A stretch of DNA of 33,458 bases from a virus. Shown here piece by piece: positions 5,973 to 11,770 of the stretch. The DNA is taken from IMG/VR virus record IMGVR_UViG_3300008738_000012, positions 1-33,458 of that record. One strand, given 5' to 3'. Made by a program: the position numbers and the translations under genes. The first letter of the stretch is position 1; each line of letters opens with the position of its first letter. The notes below the pieces were generated by a model. The model worked only from the letters and a program-made list of their open reading frames with translations. It was not told the DNA's origin and made no database searches.

Positions 5973-6223
5973 TATATTACTTTAATATCCCAATCCTTAT
6001 TTATAACAACAGGATTATAAGTTTCTATCCAAACTTTAGCCCCACAACTTAAAGGCTTATCTGGTCTATAAACAATATCAGAACCACCTAATATTTTTAC
6101 TGTATGTGCATAAATATTTTCTTTACTTGTCTTAACAGTAATTACTGGTTCATTCGTTCCATTCTTTGCATTGAATTTAATTTTATGCATATTAATATGT
6201 ATTCGTTTTAGTCGTTCTTTCAT
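5972..6223 (-). CDS. Hypothetical basic protein, 83 aa
   Basis: Family not recognised. The first 20 residues are basic. The remainder looks beta-rich (PVITVKTSKENIYAHTVKI, then a CGAKVWIETYNP turn), suggesting a small barrel-like domain. It overlaps both neighbours by 1-4 bases. Confidence 0.6.
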   Translation of the reverse strand: MKERLKRIHINMHKIKFNAKNGTNEPVITVKTSKENIYAHTVKILGGSDIVYRPDKPLSCGAKVWIETYNPVVINKDWDIKVI

Positions 6224-6462
6224 TTTTCTTTACCTACAATACTTTCTAAATAATAGTATCTACGTTTCTTTTTAATTCCAACTTTAGTATTATTATTTAA
6301 AATATCTTTTAACATATTTAATTCTTTTTCATCCCATTCGTTAAATCTAACAATTTTTCCATCAGATAAATGTATATGCAAAAATGCTTTCTTTGTGCCA
6401 TATCCACTACAACCTAAAGTAACAGATACAACATCTAAACTTCTATATGTAGTAGCACTCAT
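6220..6462 (-). CDS. Hypothetical protein, 80 aa
   Basis: The start at 6462 follows GGTGG at 7-base spacing and overlaps the stop of the tiny membrane peptide before it (ATGA). A GTG-initiated extension to 6501 would run through that peptide gene and is less likely. The protein has alternating strands, then a basic C-terminus (KVGIKKKRRYYYLE). Family not recognised. Confidence 0.6.
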   Translation of the reverse strand: MSATTYRSLDVVSVTLGCSGYGTKKAFLHIHLSDGKIVRFNEWDEKELNMLKDILNNNTKVGIKKKRRYYYLESIVGKEK

Positions 6463-6515
6463 ATTAACGCCACCACTATTATTATTAAAATTACAATCCA
6501 CAATATATGTGCCAT
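6459..6515 (-). CDS. Tiny transmembrane peptide, 18 aa, first leftward gene
   Basis: MAHILWIVILIIIVVALI is a single hydrophobic helix and nothing else. The ATG at 6515 has a very good Shine-Dalgarno element (AAAGGAG) five bases upstream, the best in the block. Its stop overlaps the next ATG (ATGA). It would be the first product of the leftward transcript. Alternatively it may be a leader peptide whose translation opens the next gene's start. Confidence 0.5.
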   Translation of the reverse strand: MAHILWIVILIIIVVALI

Positions 6516-6540
6516 TTTTTCTCCTTTCATTAAACTTGGA

Positions 6541-7110
6541 CTATACTAGATGACCCCGATTTCTTTCCTCATCATCGTTTCAGTACTAGGGATGTATAGC
6601 CCAAGTAAATTTGGGTAGTTTATTTGTATATAACATTTGGCACTACCCAAGCCCTTAAGTGATACCCGCCAAGGGCGTAGGTTTTCACTATTTGAAAGTT
6701 TCCTAATTTATACTGCAGTACAACCTCACAATCGAGCAGTCGTAAATAGAGTAACCTTATTTGTTACTGTGGGAACAGGGCGTTTCATAACATTAACTTA
6801 TTTCGTCACAGGCGGTTTTATCCTAGCGACTCTCTTTACCCAACTCTCTATTTACTCATTAGTAGCACTTAGTAAGCCTTCCTTTTTTAACGTCTTGATT
6901 TCAACAATGACCAGTTACTAAAAAACCTGTTATATTTATGCCTACTACTAAACAATATTAACTTGGGTGTGTTTTATACCCACGATGTCAATTCATCGGG
7001 ACAGGAACTTAATTATTGACCCATATCCTGTAGTGTCATTTAAGACTTTTCATTGGTAGTCAACCAAATTAATATTGTAATTATATAAATAGACTACTGA
7101 ATATCTATGG
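6541..7110. ncRNA. Structured non-coding island with pseudoknot
   Basis: This gap between divergent operons is visibly richer in G and C than the surrounding genes and dense in short perfect inverted repeats: CTATAC/GTATAG (6541, 6594), TTGGGTAG/CTACCCAA (6611, 6643), GCCCTT/AAGGGC (6651, 6671), AGTAAC/GTTACT (6750, 6763), and GGGTGT/ATACCC with one G-U pair near 6965-6981. GTCAAT (6987-6992)/ATTGAC (7015-7020) interlocks with ACAGGA (7001-7006)/TCCTGT (7026-7031), an H-type pseudoknot. A 95-codon plus-strand frame (6637-6921) has foreign-looking third positions and no ribosome site. The likely explanation is one or more structured RNAs, or an origin. Direction is uncertain; a rightward RNA would end at the T-tract. 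Confidence 0.5.
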
Positions 7111-7145
7111 CAATACTTTTTTTATTTTTTTTTTATTTTTTTTTA
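7088..7145 (+). terminator. Weak hairpin plus 28-base T-rich tract
   Basis: A 5-bp stem, ATAGA/TCTAT (7088-7107), is followed by runs of 7, 10 and 9 T residues separated by single A residues (7117-7144). It may end a rightward RNA from the structured island. Equally it could be an easily melted or bent segment next to the primase gene, as at replication origins. The stem is weak for a terminator. Confidence 0.35.
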
Positions 7146-7147
7146 TC

Positions 7148-7180: not shown

Positions 7181-7209
7181 TCATTACTTTGCTACAGGGG
7201 TACTATTAT

Positions 7210-8499: not shown

Positions 8500-9715
8500 A
8501 AAACAAGTAATAGCATTGTGTCTACGAAAAGAGTTTTGGGATAAAGCTAAAAACATTTTATCAAAAGATATGTTTCCAAAAGAATACTCAACAATTTTTG
8601 AAACAATAAATTCATCACAACAAAAATATGAAGTGGACTTAACAGTTGATGAGTTACTTGCATTACATAGAGATAGATATCCTGCAATGCCAGAATCTAC
8701 TCGTAATAATATAGAAGAAGAAATAGAAAATTTAAAAGGTGTTGCACCTACAAATATGTCTATGGCTTTTGATTTATTATTTAATTTATGGAGAAGAGAC
8801 AAAGCTAGAGAAATAGGAGATAAAGCATTAGCAATATGGACAGGGCAAAGTGATGACTTTGGAGTGTTACAAAGAATAATTGATACAGCATTAAAGGAAG
8901 ACCCAGAACAGCACGAAACTTTTACAATTATAAGAGATACACTAAAAGATTTAATCGCAAATGAAACTAAAACGTGTGATTTTAAATTTCCATTAAAACC
9001 TTTGTACTCACAAGTTATGGGTTTAAACAAAGGGGACTTAGGAATTATATTTGCAAGACCAGAAGTTGGTAAAACATCTTTCTGTTGTTATTTAGCAAGT
9101 GAATATGTAAAAGCAGGACATAAAGTTTTTTATTGGGCTAATGAAGAAAGAGCAACAAGATTAAAAATTCGTATCTTCTGTTCTTTATTGAATATGTCAA
9201 AAGATGATTTGTATGACAATGTTGATAGTTGTAGTAACAAACTACAAGACATGGAAGTGGAAGATAAATTAACAGTTATAGATAGTGTAGGTACAGATAT
9301 TAGTGAAATACAATCTTACTGTGATTTAAATAAACCAGATATTATATTTGTTGACCAATTAGATAAAATAAAAGTAAGAGGTAATTTTAATAGAGGGGAT
9401 GAACGATTAAAAGAATTATATAGTTCTGCAAGAGAAATAGCAAAACGAAATAATTGTTTAGTGTGGGCTGTATCTCAAGCAGGTGCAGACGCAGAGGGTA
9501 AACAAATTATTAGTTATGATATGTTGGATGGTTCTAAAACAGGCAAGGCAGGTGAGGGTGATATAATTATTGGAATAGGTAGAAATAATGGTGATTACGA
9601 TTTAGACCCAACGAGATTTTTAACAATATCTAAAAATAAAGTTAATGGCGTTCATTCTACTGTAACTTGTGAAATGGATGTTAAAACAGGTGTGTTTAAG
9701 GACTTTGCAGAATGA
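8492..9715 (+). CDS. DnaB-family replicative helicase
   Basis: It unwinds DNA at the fork using ATP. The 407-aa protein has a helical N-terminal region (about 1-160) and a RecA-type core: Walker A ARPEVGKTS at 188-196 (K194), FYWANEER near 213-220, Walker B DIIFVDQLD at 283-291 (D288), and a WAVSQAGADAEG segment corresponding to motif H3. The Walker A starts with Ala-Arg-Pro as in DnaB (ARPGMGKT). The start is GTG, preceded by GGTGG, and overlaps the lipoprotein gene by 8 bases. It pairs with the separate primase at 7210. Confidence 0.85.
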   Translation: MIEKQVIALCLRKEFWDKAKNILSKDMFPKEYSTIFETINSSQQKYEVDLTVDELLALHRDRYPAMPESTRNNIEEEIENLKGVAPTNMSMAFDLLFNLWRRDKAREIGDKALAIWTGQSDDFGVLQRIIDTALKEDPEQHETFTIIRDTLKDLIANETKTCDFKFPLKPLYSQVMGLNKGDLGIIFARPEVGKTSFCCYLASEYVKAGHKVFYWANEERATRLKIRIFCSLLNMSKDDLYDNVDSCSNKLQDMEVEDKLTVIDSVGTDISEIQSYCDLNKPDIIFVDQLDKIKVRGNFNRGDERLKELYSSAREIAKRNNCLVWAVSQAGADAEGKQIISYDMLDGSKTGKAGEGDIIIGIGRNNGDYDLDPTRFLTISKNKVNGVHSTVTCEMDVKTGVFKDFAE

Positions 9716-10260
9716 AGTGGGGACTAACAACTTGTTTAGATGTAGAAACAACATTTAAAAAAGACGATGCTTATTTTTATAATGGCAATAATCAGTTAGT
9801 AAGTGTAGGATTTAAGACACAATCTGGAAAGGAAGATTACATATGGTTTTATCACAAAGAGAAAGAGCCAACAGAAAATGGTAAAGAAACACTACAAAAT
9901 TTACTTAACAGCACAAAATTACTTATTGGACATAATATTAAATTTGATTTGGCTTGGCTGTATGGTTGTGGTTTTACTTATAATGGTAGGTTATATGATA
10001 CTATGGTTGTTGAGTATCTTCTTGCTAGAGGCGTACATTGTGATTTATCATTGGATGGTTCGTGCAAAAGACGAAAAGTAAAACAGAAAAAGAAACACTT
10101 GATTGAAAGTCACATGAAAAGTGGAGTTAGTATGGAAGATATTCCGTACAAATTAATAGAAGAATATGGTAGGGGTGATGTAGATTGTACCTACGATTTA
10201 GCAATGGAACAATGTAAATTATTAGAGGTGGATATAAATGAGTTTAGTAAATACAATTAA
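9712..10260 (+). CDS. 3'-5' exonuclease subunit of split family A DNA polymerase
   Basis: It would proofread or trim 3' ends as the DnaQ-like domain of a PolA-type enzyme. Exo I is LDVET (D10, E12), Exo II is GHNIKFDLAWL (N75, D79), and Exo III is YGRGD with Y152 and D156. A basic insert (KRRKVKQKKKH, about 119-129) may touch DNA. The 182-aa product ends with a normal stop, 23 bases after the start of the polymerase gene in the +1 frame. It starts with an ATGA overlap with the helicase. In HMO-2011, as I recall, this domain is fused to the polymerase. Confidence 0.85.
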   Translation: MKWGLTTCLDVETTFKKDDAYFYNGNNQLVSVGFKTQSGKEDYIWFYHKEKEPTENGKETLQNLLNSTKLLIGHNIKFDLAWLYGCGFTYNGRLYDTMVVEYLLARGVHCDLSLDGSCKRRKVKQKKKHLIESHMKSGVSMEDIPYKLIEEYGRGDVDCTYDLAMEQCKLLEVDINEFSKYN

Positions 10261-11770
10261 TTTATCATTTGAAATGACAAAAGCATTGACAGACATGGAA
10301 GTTAATGGTATAAAGATAAATGTAGATACACTACATAAATTAAGAGATGAGTACCAAACAGAACTAGTTGTTCTTAATAAAAAGTTAGATACAATGGTTA
10401 AAGAAGCAATGGGAGATACACCAATTAATTTAGATAGTGGTGAAGATAGGTCAATGGTTATGTACAGTTGTAAAGTAAAAGATAAGAATATATGGAAAAA
10501 TTCTTTTAATTTAGGTACAGAAGTTCGTAGGGGTGGTGCAAAACGTCCTAAAAAGAGACCAAATTTAAGAAAAAGTGAGTTTAATCACATGGTAGCACGA
10601 ATGACAGATGTAGTTTATAAAACAAAAGTACAACAATGCGACAATTGTTGGGGTAAGGGAACAATAAAAAAATATACTGTTAAAGGAGATTTATATAAAA
10701 TAGCACCAAAATGTCCTAAATGTAGTGGTAAAGGTGTTTTATATATACCAACAAATGAAGTAGCAGGTTTTAAATTAGTACCTACAAATATTATGGATTG
10801 TACTGTTAATGGATTTAAAACTGATATGGATACAGCAACGAAACACATAACAGAAACTAATGAAACAGCAAAAGATTTTTTACAATCTTACACTAGGTAT
10901 AGTGCTATAAGAACATATTTACGAACATTTATTGAAGGTATAGAAAAAGGATTAGATGTTAATAATTTTATTCATCCACAATTTATGCAATGCGTAACAG
11001 CAACAGGTCGACTGTCTTCTAGAAATCCTAATTTCCAAAATATGCCTAGAGGTGCTACATTTCCTGTAAGAAAGGCTATTGTTAGTAGATTTAAAAATGG
11101 ATTTATATTAGAGGGTGATTATAGACAATTAGAATTTAGAGTTGCAGGTTTTTTATCTAAAGACAAGCAATTGTATAGAGATGTAGAAAATAATGTAGAT
11201 GTTCATCAATATACTGCAGATACAATGGGTGTTGAAAGACAAGAGGCAAAAGCACATACATTTAAACCATTATATGGCGGTGTTTTAGGTACTCCAAAAG
11301 AAATGAGATACTATGAAGCATTTAAACATAAGTATTGGCAGGTAACAAATTGGCATGATAAATTACAGAAAGAGGCTGTAGATACAAAAAAAATTAAACT
11401 ACCCTCTGGTAGAGAATATTCATTTCCGTATGCTAGATATACACAATATGGTAATGTAACAAATTCAACAGCAATAAAAAATTATCCTGTTCAAGGATTT
11501 GCAACAGCAGATTTATTACCTCTTGCGTTAGTTAACCTATATGCTATAATGAAAAAAAAGAATATGAAAAGTGTTATTTGTAACACAGTTCACGATAGTA
11601 TTATTCTTGATGTTCATCCAGAAGAAAAGATACAGTGCATAGATTGTTTAAGAAATGCAATGATGAGTATAAAAGATGAATGTAATAGTAGATACAATAT
11701 TAATTATGATATGCCTGTTGATATTGAATTAAAAATAGGCGATAATTGGTTGGAGACTAAGGAAATATAA
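10238..11770 (+). CDS. Family A DNA polymerase with DnaJ-type zinc finger
   Basis: This 510-aa polymerase lacks its own exonuclease domain. Residues 134-141 (CDNCWGKG) and 159-166 (CPKCSGKG) match the DnaJ central-domain repeat CxxCxGxG, an insert known from phage HMO-2011 polymerase. The polymerase motifs follow: TGRLSSRNPNFQN (257-268), motif A LEGDYRQLEFR (D294), motif B RxxxKxxxFxxxYG (R334, K338, F342, Y346) and motif C VHDS (D453). Phe occupies the position equivalent to E. coli F762. Motif C has Ser where HDE is usual. The ATG at 10238 has GAGGTGG upstream, inside the exonuclease gene, so the start looks genuine. Confidence 0.9.
   Translation: MSLVNTINLSFEMTKALTDMEVNGIKINVDTLHKLRDEYQTELVVLNKKLDTMVKEAMGDTPINLDSGEDRSMVMYSCKVKDKNIWKNSFNLGTEVRRGGAKRPKKRPNLRKSEFNHMVARMTDVVYKTKVQQCDNCWGKGTIKKYTVKGDLYKIAPKCPKCSGKGVLYIPTNEVAGFKLVPTNIMDCTVNGFKTDMDTATKHITETNETAKDFLQSYTRYSAIRTYLRTFIEGIEKGLDVNNFIHPQFMQCVTATGRLSSRNPNFQNMPRGATFPVRKAIVSRFKNGFILEGDYRQLEFRVAGFLSKDKQLYRDVENNVDVHQYTADTMGVERQEAKAHTFKPLYGGVLGTPKEMRYYEAFKHKYWQVTNWHDKLQKEAVDTKKIKLPSGREYSFPYARYTQYGNVTNSTAIKNYPVQGFATADLLPLALVNLYAIMKKKNMKSVICNTVHDSIILDVHPEEKIQCIDCLRNAMMSIKDECNSRYNINYDMPVDIELKIGDNWLETKEI

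Follow-up and report, generated by a model that had tools for sequence, protein, structure and literature searches.

GOLLD and ROOL are large multi-domain noncoding RNAs of phages and bacteria, recorded in Rfam, with many helices and pseudoknots. The HK022 put RNA and other antitermination leaders (EAR) are structured RNAs that lie just after the promoter in early phage operons. Phage PhiTE is reported to evade ToxIN through RNA mimics of the ToxI pseudoknot (PMC3475682). The locus described here lies in a window of 33,458 nucleotides (the whole stretch of viral DNA analysed, IMG/VR record IMGVR_UViG_3300008738_000012) and holds an array of predicted RNA modules that is similar to GOLLD and ROOL in being long, rich in helices, pseudoknotted and linked to phages; it differs from them in having no Rfam match and in that its modules are separately mobile, reshuffled and also found singly. 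The 5' module, named M6, resembles HK022 put and EAR only in its position at the 5' end of the predicted transcript, and is larger than HK022 put and pseudoknotted. M6 and a second module, M2, are comparable to riboswitch leaders (SAM-V, preQ1-II and others) as 5'-leader pseudoknots close upstream of a ribosome binding site (RBS), but they show no shared downstream pathway and no consistent switch. The succession of pseudoknotted modules also recalls ToxI and pseudo-ToxI of type III toxin-antitoxin systems, and mimicry of the kind reported for PhiTE is a possible use (PMC3475682); unlike ToxI, however, the array has no direct repeats of one unit (TRF returned a T-tract only), and its modules vary in size and sequence. 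No toxin gene was seen. As far as Rfam 15 and the literature search show, M6 and M2 are undescribed RNA families: the search found no papers on these RNAs, and a pelagiphage transcriptome paper makes no mention of noncoding or untranslated RNA.

In the window, the gap between the divergent genes measures 687 nt by the ORF calls and is limited by a minus-strand gene start at about 6462 and by the plus-strand primase gene at 7189. The first-pass annotation had described it as GC-richer than its surroundings, and in fact GC content is 36% within 6541-7110 as compared to 31% across the window. The inverted repeats that had also been pointed out are present, but at short range their number is close to chance (17 vs. 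11.4 in shuffled sequences for 6-bp arms and loops up to 60, with 9 of 60 shuffles as high), whereas at longer range they are in excess (8 vs. 1.8 for 8-bp arms and loops up to 150, 0 of 60 shuffles). Single-sequence folding was mildly unusual, with z of -1.9 on the plus strand and -1.07 on the minus strand. Inverted repeats and folding of a single sequence would not by themselves prove a structured RNA, and the case is made by comparison with relatives. As already annotated, tRNA and tmRNA genes are absent (none by ARAGORN); nor did Rfam 15 give any family at the gathering cut-off, either in the window or in 16 relatives, or at looser thresholds in the window and, up to E 0.5, among ten relatives. 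PreQ1-II scored 19.6 bits, the cut-off being 47.

A primase search yielded 74 viral loci, and scans of viral contigs with three pieces of the gap gave 46, 8 and 45 stretches, with 114 and 79 in wider scans; these scans used fixed sequence patterns, so that divergent copies escape them. Sister phages with primases 87-95% identical have the same flanks and differing gap contents, with gain and loss at module borders. Position 6855 is joined directly to 7078 in L007, the segment 6952-7078 is missing from L004 and L006, and in L005 M2 adjoins M5 and a divergent M4 is found in a different order. Judged by this comparison, at least six modules that can be separated from one another make up the gap, and not the one fold across the region that had been assumed. 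The structured extent covers about 7078-6534 on the minus strand, downstream of the promoter-like site at 7107-7080. The predicted features are the following:

7080..7107, minus strand: promoter-like site TAGATA-16-TATAAT, its -10 end 16 nt from the M6 P1 junction
6952..7078, minus strand: M6, five-helix pseudoknotted RNA of about 110 nt
7078-7064/6966-6952, minus strand: M6 P1, closing stem
7063-7058/7021-7016, minus strand: M6 X, the pseudoknot, with X5 in J and X3 in the P3 loop
7046-7044/7037-7035, minus strand: M6 P2, small hairpin, replaceable by inserts up to 125 nt
7031-7027/7005-7001, minus strand: M6 P3, ACAGG/CCTGT
7000-6994/6987-6984 and 6981-6979, minus strand: M6 P4, hairpin with loop AATTGA, AATTAA or, rarely, CGTATAT
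6859..6951, minus strand: M5, stem-closed by TTAGTAG/CTACTAA, inner helix TTAGTAA/TTACTAA
6740..6855, minus strand: M4, stem-closed, outer stem GTAAATAGAG/CTCTATTTAC
6692..6740, minus strand: O, weak hairpin
6658..6692, minus strand: module J, hairpin GTGA-AA-ACC-TA-CGCC-NTT-GGCG-GGT-TCAC
6613..6653, minus strand: M2, H-type pseudoknot GGC-UU-GGGUAG-U-GCC / AAA-CUACCC (6648-6643 with 6618-6613), swappable payload between
6534..6606, minus strand: M1, long hairpin ACTTGGgCTATAC/GTATAGTCCAAGT adjoining the RBS
6459..6515, minus strand: micro-ORF MAHILWIVILIIIVVALI, 18 codons, hydrophobic, following AAAGGAG, with an ATGA overlap with the next start
6220..6462, minus strand: first ordinary gene of the leftward operon, an ORF with no Pfam or PHROGs match

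The segments of M6 were analysed in 42 non-redundant copies. Since P1 and X3 were displaced by a single column in part of the rows of a first MAFFT alignment (A1), the test of X was made segment by segment. All 11 distinct J types had an X5 that matched the X3 belonging to it (permutation p = 1e-5), and the mean score was 4.6 for own and 3.5 for swapped partners in a permutation test. The variants of X comprise TTGACT/GGTCAA, TCTG/CAGA, GCCG/CGGC, TAAGAC/GTCTTA, TAGGGTT/AATCCTA, GCA/TGC and others, and compensatory changes are present in P1, P2, P3 and P4 as well. When scanned without requiring P3, the copies contained CCTGT in 72 cases and CCAGT in five, and every CCAGT was paired with ACTGG. 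The covariance model R1 gave 80 matches in 82 loci, and M6 of the window scored 95 bits (E 5e-20). Counted over sequences and not over evolutionary events, compensatory change was seen in 15 of 23 M6 pairs as compared to 12.0 in shuffles (1 of 500), two-sided changes in 191 cells as compared to 57.5 (0 of 500), and pairing in 95.2% of the helix cells of the fitted alignment as compared to 79.3% when shuffled and 33-41% when slid. This second alignment (A2) was fitted to the covariance model and leans towards it; for this reason the X test and the P3 variant, which are independent of the fit, weigh more. In copies with large inserts the covariance fits misplace the 5' half, which brings P1 pairing down to 89%. 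A copy lacking P2, P3 and X through internal deletion, with P1 and P4 kept, heads a long array at L161:1362-1420 (-).

The first-pass annotation had drawn an H-type pseudoknot from two 6-bp pairs, both of which exist. ACAGGA/TCCTGT (7001/7026) was borne out by the compensatory variant ACTGG/CCAGT in five contigs. GTCAAT/ATTGAC (6987/7015), on the other hand, is not conserved, and a helix of at least 5 bp was found in only 6 of the 42 non-redundant relatives: the 6987 side forms the apical loop of P4, which is nearly constant, and the actual partner of the 7015 side is TTGACT at 7063-7058. A pseudoknot is thus present, but with another partner strand, the true helix being X (7063-7058/7021-7016). 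The broader proposal of a conserved, pseudoknotted RNA, for which covariation among homologues had been named as the check, is strongly borne out by the covariation observed across more than 50 distinct sequences. A protein-coding reading of the array is not supported, as conservation tracks the helices, with indels, compensatory changes and inserts of any length. On these grounds, the region almost certainly encodes a structured RNA.

Of the remaining modules, M5, M4 and J each display a small number of compensatory changes. M5 is 98.7-98.9% identical in L004, L005, L006 and L159, where its position in the array differs, and in L128 its inner helix is compensated (CTAGTCA/TGACTAG). M4 has relatives in L005, L007, L122, L123, L124 and L127, with GGG/CCC, GAG/CTC, GTGAG/CTCAC and TGTTGG/CCAACA as variants of its inner closing helix; in L123 it occurs on its own and is followed by a terminator-like hairpin and T8. 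Relatives of module J were found in L123, L132, L143 and L221, and the P2 loop of the M6 of L168 encloses a variant of J that has GTGG/CCAC and TCC/GGA. M2 is represented by about 50 distinct copies, usually directly upstream of an RBS. Its variation is scarce, the search patterns having fixed most of the module; a variant combining GGU/ACC with GAGUAG/CUACUC was nevertheless found, together with G-U intermediates, in two scans, only the first of which is unbiased because the second required the compensated form. The 13-nt arms of M1 are 92% complementary and fold at -23.6 kcal/mol, but no relatives were found outside near-identical contigs, and M1 is the least supported module. O, 94% identical in L110 and weak in folding, is also weakly supported.

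The first-pass annotation implied an RNA read from the plus strand, whereas several observations indicate the opposite. Among the helix cells that are not Watson-Crick, 13 are G-U and 4 are A-C on the minus strand, and the P1 of the window has one T-G pair where the plus strand would show an A-C mismatch. On the minus strand the modules run from the promoter-like site to an RBS and a start codon, and in almost every locus the gene nearest the left side of the array (in window orientation) is a minus-strand gene. Positions 7110-7080 are 90-100% identical in L004-L007 despite the differing module set behind them, and in other phages TTGAC[AT]-17-TATA sites are spaced equally far from M6. In about 31 of 54 M6 loci the end of the best promoter-like site is 13-17 nt upstream of the P1 junction, so that the predicted transcription start falls at the 5' end of P1; strong sites (score of at least 9.5) were present upstream of 37 of these 54 loci and of 32 of 260 control segments. 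At the other end, M6 lies 26-46 nt upstream of a start codon in 26 of 52 cases and M2 15-35 nt upstream in 34 of 64, the next start codon being found more than 50 nt away in about half of the cases. A plus-strand RNA terminating at the T-rich tract 7117-7146 would be in line with the T-run and with the folding z of -1.9 on that strand, but the G-U to A-C ratio, the promoters and the start codons point to the minus strand, and the tract occurs in close relatives only while M6 is widespread; we regard this possibility as hardly credible. Comparison of the sequences places the array RNA on the minus strand with high probability.

The T-rich tract itself, with regularly spaced A (T7AT10AT9), lies between the divergent transcripts and is kept in the sister phages L004-L007. 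The divergent promoter region also contains an imperfect palindrome, ATAGATATTCAGTAGTCTAT (window 7089-7108), conserved in L004-L007, which is a possible operator. At the array ends of L147 and L161 there is a terminator-like hairpin (GCTTGACTTTTTTTTAATTTTCGAGTATACT) whose 3' arm and T-run double as the -35/-10 promoter of the next gene. In the divergent region of L087 (G007 40,322-40,786), M6 is found in one direction and M2 in the other, so that both divergent transcripts would carry such leaders.

The RBS at the end of the array serves the micro-ORF, which is conserved with conservative changes in L005, L006, L007 and L159. The GTG start at 6501 given for the following gene in the ORF list is probably wrong, the ATG at 6462 being the likelier start. 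Across loci, the genes downstream of M6 and M2 are diverse, including primase-like and SSB-like proteins (the latter by our own reading), Dam methylase and unknowns, with no common pathway. Among ten M6 records examined, which are partial and share ancestry, no gene family that might encode a protein partner of M6 occurred in all, the best reaching 6 of 10. A downstream terminator as a general rule was also rejected, as a terminator-like hairpin follows 10 of 122 groups and 24 of 552 random segments. Inspection revealed neither a conserved anti-SD switch nor a terminator switch.

These observations bear on a reading of the array as tandem ligand-binding riboswitch leaders, in which every module would be an aptamer for control of the operon. 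The size of M6 and M2, their pseudoknots, their invariant loop bases and their 5'-leader position would fit such a role. However, no Rfam riboswitch was matched, the expression platform is inconsistent and terminators are uncommon, the downstream genes have no pathway in common, and the P4 loop and P2 of M6 are replaceable wholesale, all of which makes this reading improbable. The P2 position of M6 in fact behaves as a socket, with more than 20 different insert types. Identical inserts occur in M6 scaffolds that differ in P1 and X, as does GTTGCGATGCACTCAGTGCTATTAGTCAA in three subtypes; a 59-nt hairpin, GTTCAATAGGTG..., is found within M6 (L110), within the M2 payload (L212) and alone (L143), and the GCAATGTAARACTGGTTTGAAACG hairpin in at least four different closings.

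About 80 marine virus contigs and one isolate, Pelagibacter phage HTVC115P, carry M6. In the isolate it lies precisely in the unannotated gp07-gp08 gap, inside a co-directional operon, and the predicted RNA would span 2741-2863 on the plus strand of that record, the strand of gp07 and gp08. M6 was present in 23 of 30 records searched whole (most phage records being fragments), with exactly one copy in each. HTVC115P was the sole match in a DNA search of phages with three arrays, and a 36-nt piece of the gap also occurs in it. No true copy emerged from two pattern scans that covered 84,980 genomes of bacteria and archaea: the M2 pattern was absent, and the M6 core gave four isolated matches, none confirmed by the covariance model. 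M6 was not found in the first 11 kb of HTVC033P, nor in 10.5 kb of HMO-2011. The DNA polymerase of the window is closest to that of HTVC033P (47.5%) and of other HMO-2011-type phages. At window 9712-11770, its exonuclease-like part (182 aa) and its polymerase part (510 aa) are in two overlapping ORFs, while in HTVC033P and HMO-2011 they form one gene; either the gene is truly split or the contig contains a frameshift.

The first-pass annotation had offered an origin as an alternative to an RNA, and the evidence so far favours a leader. A DNA-level element, either an origin or a recombination hot spot where single-stranded hairpins matter, would suit the change of sign of GC skew at the gap, the adjoining T-rich tract 7117-7146 and the hypervariable mosaic. 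The skew, however, also tracks gene direction, the G-U pairs of one strand and the promoter and RBS spacing favour RNA, and M6 precedes many different genes, also inside co-directional operons such as that of HTVC115P; we consider such an element very unlikely. That the array is a mosaic leader, on the other hand, appears highly likely from these comparisons.

Our preferred reading, towards which we lean only slightly on the comparative data, is that the array serves the leftward early operon of an HMO-2011-type marine phage as a 5' leader RNA that acts in cis and is hot-swappable. The minus strand from 7078 to 6534 would be the 5' untranslated leader of this operon, a string of independently folding modules that begins with the 5'-terminal M6 and ends just before the RBS of the micro-ORF and the next gene. 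Whole modules are exchanged between phages, and hairpins are plugged into the open loops of M6 and M2. The pseudoknots and the closed P1 stem at the 5' terminus would protect the mRNA against decay that depends on the 5' end, and/or the nascent RNA polymerase or the ribosome would read them, in a put-like or leader-like action; the result would be high expression of the early operon while the genes behind the leader are exchanged. Structure, strand, modularity and position come from comparison, whereas we infer cis action from how closely the array is tied to transcription start and RBS, and the chances that the leader acts on its own transcript seem to us evenly balanced. What speaks most against cis action is that each genome has one copy, that there is no fixed target gene and that modules are swapped rapidly.

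The main rival explanation is a trans-acting noncoding early RNA whose modules each bind a host or rival factor and could, for instance, counter RNA-based defence as mimics or decoys. It would explain the fast module swapping, with its high turnover between close relatives and nested swaps, and it agrees with the single M6 in all 23 matching records, which is odd for a general mRNA stabiliser, and with the downstream gene that is not fixed. The terminator-like hairpins that end some copies suit a free small RNA, and PhiTE, which is reported to escape ToxIN by mimics of the ToxI pseudoknot (PMC3475682), offers a precedent. However, half of the M6 and M2 copies lie 15-46 nt from a start codon, which is needless for free RNAs, tandem repeats of the ToxI type are absent, and the patterns used in the scans of bacterial genomes brought up no similar RNA. 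We therefore hold a trans-acting RNA to be possible but rather unlikely. A combinatorial system, in which early transcripts draw on a shared pool of nestable RNA modules, each for a different host factor, is a speculative idea to which we give slightly less credit still.

The modules account for blank intergenic gaps in marine phage genomes, including gp07-gp08 of HTVC115P, and, as the phages with M6 or M2 include this pelagiphage isolate, they are testable in culture. RNAs seldom evolve through a socket architecture of this kind, in which a conserved pseudoknot receives hairpins that are swapped whole, and the inserts are a natural library for probing the role of phage leader RNAs. If the combinatorial system were true, the RNA leader would be a mosaic accessory locus in its own right.
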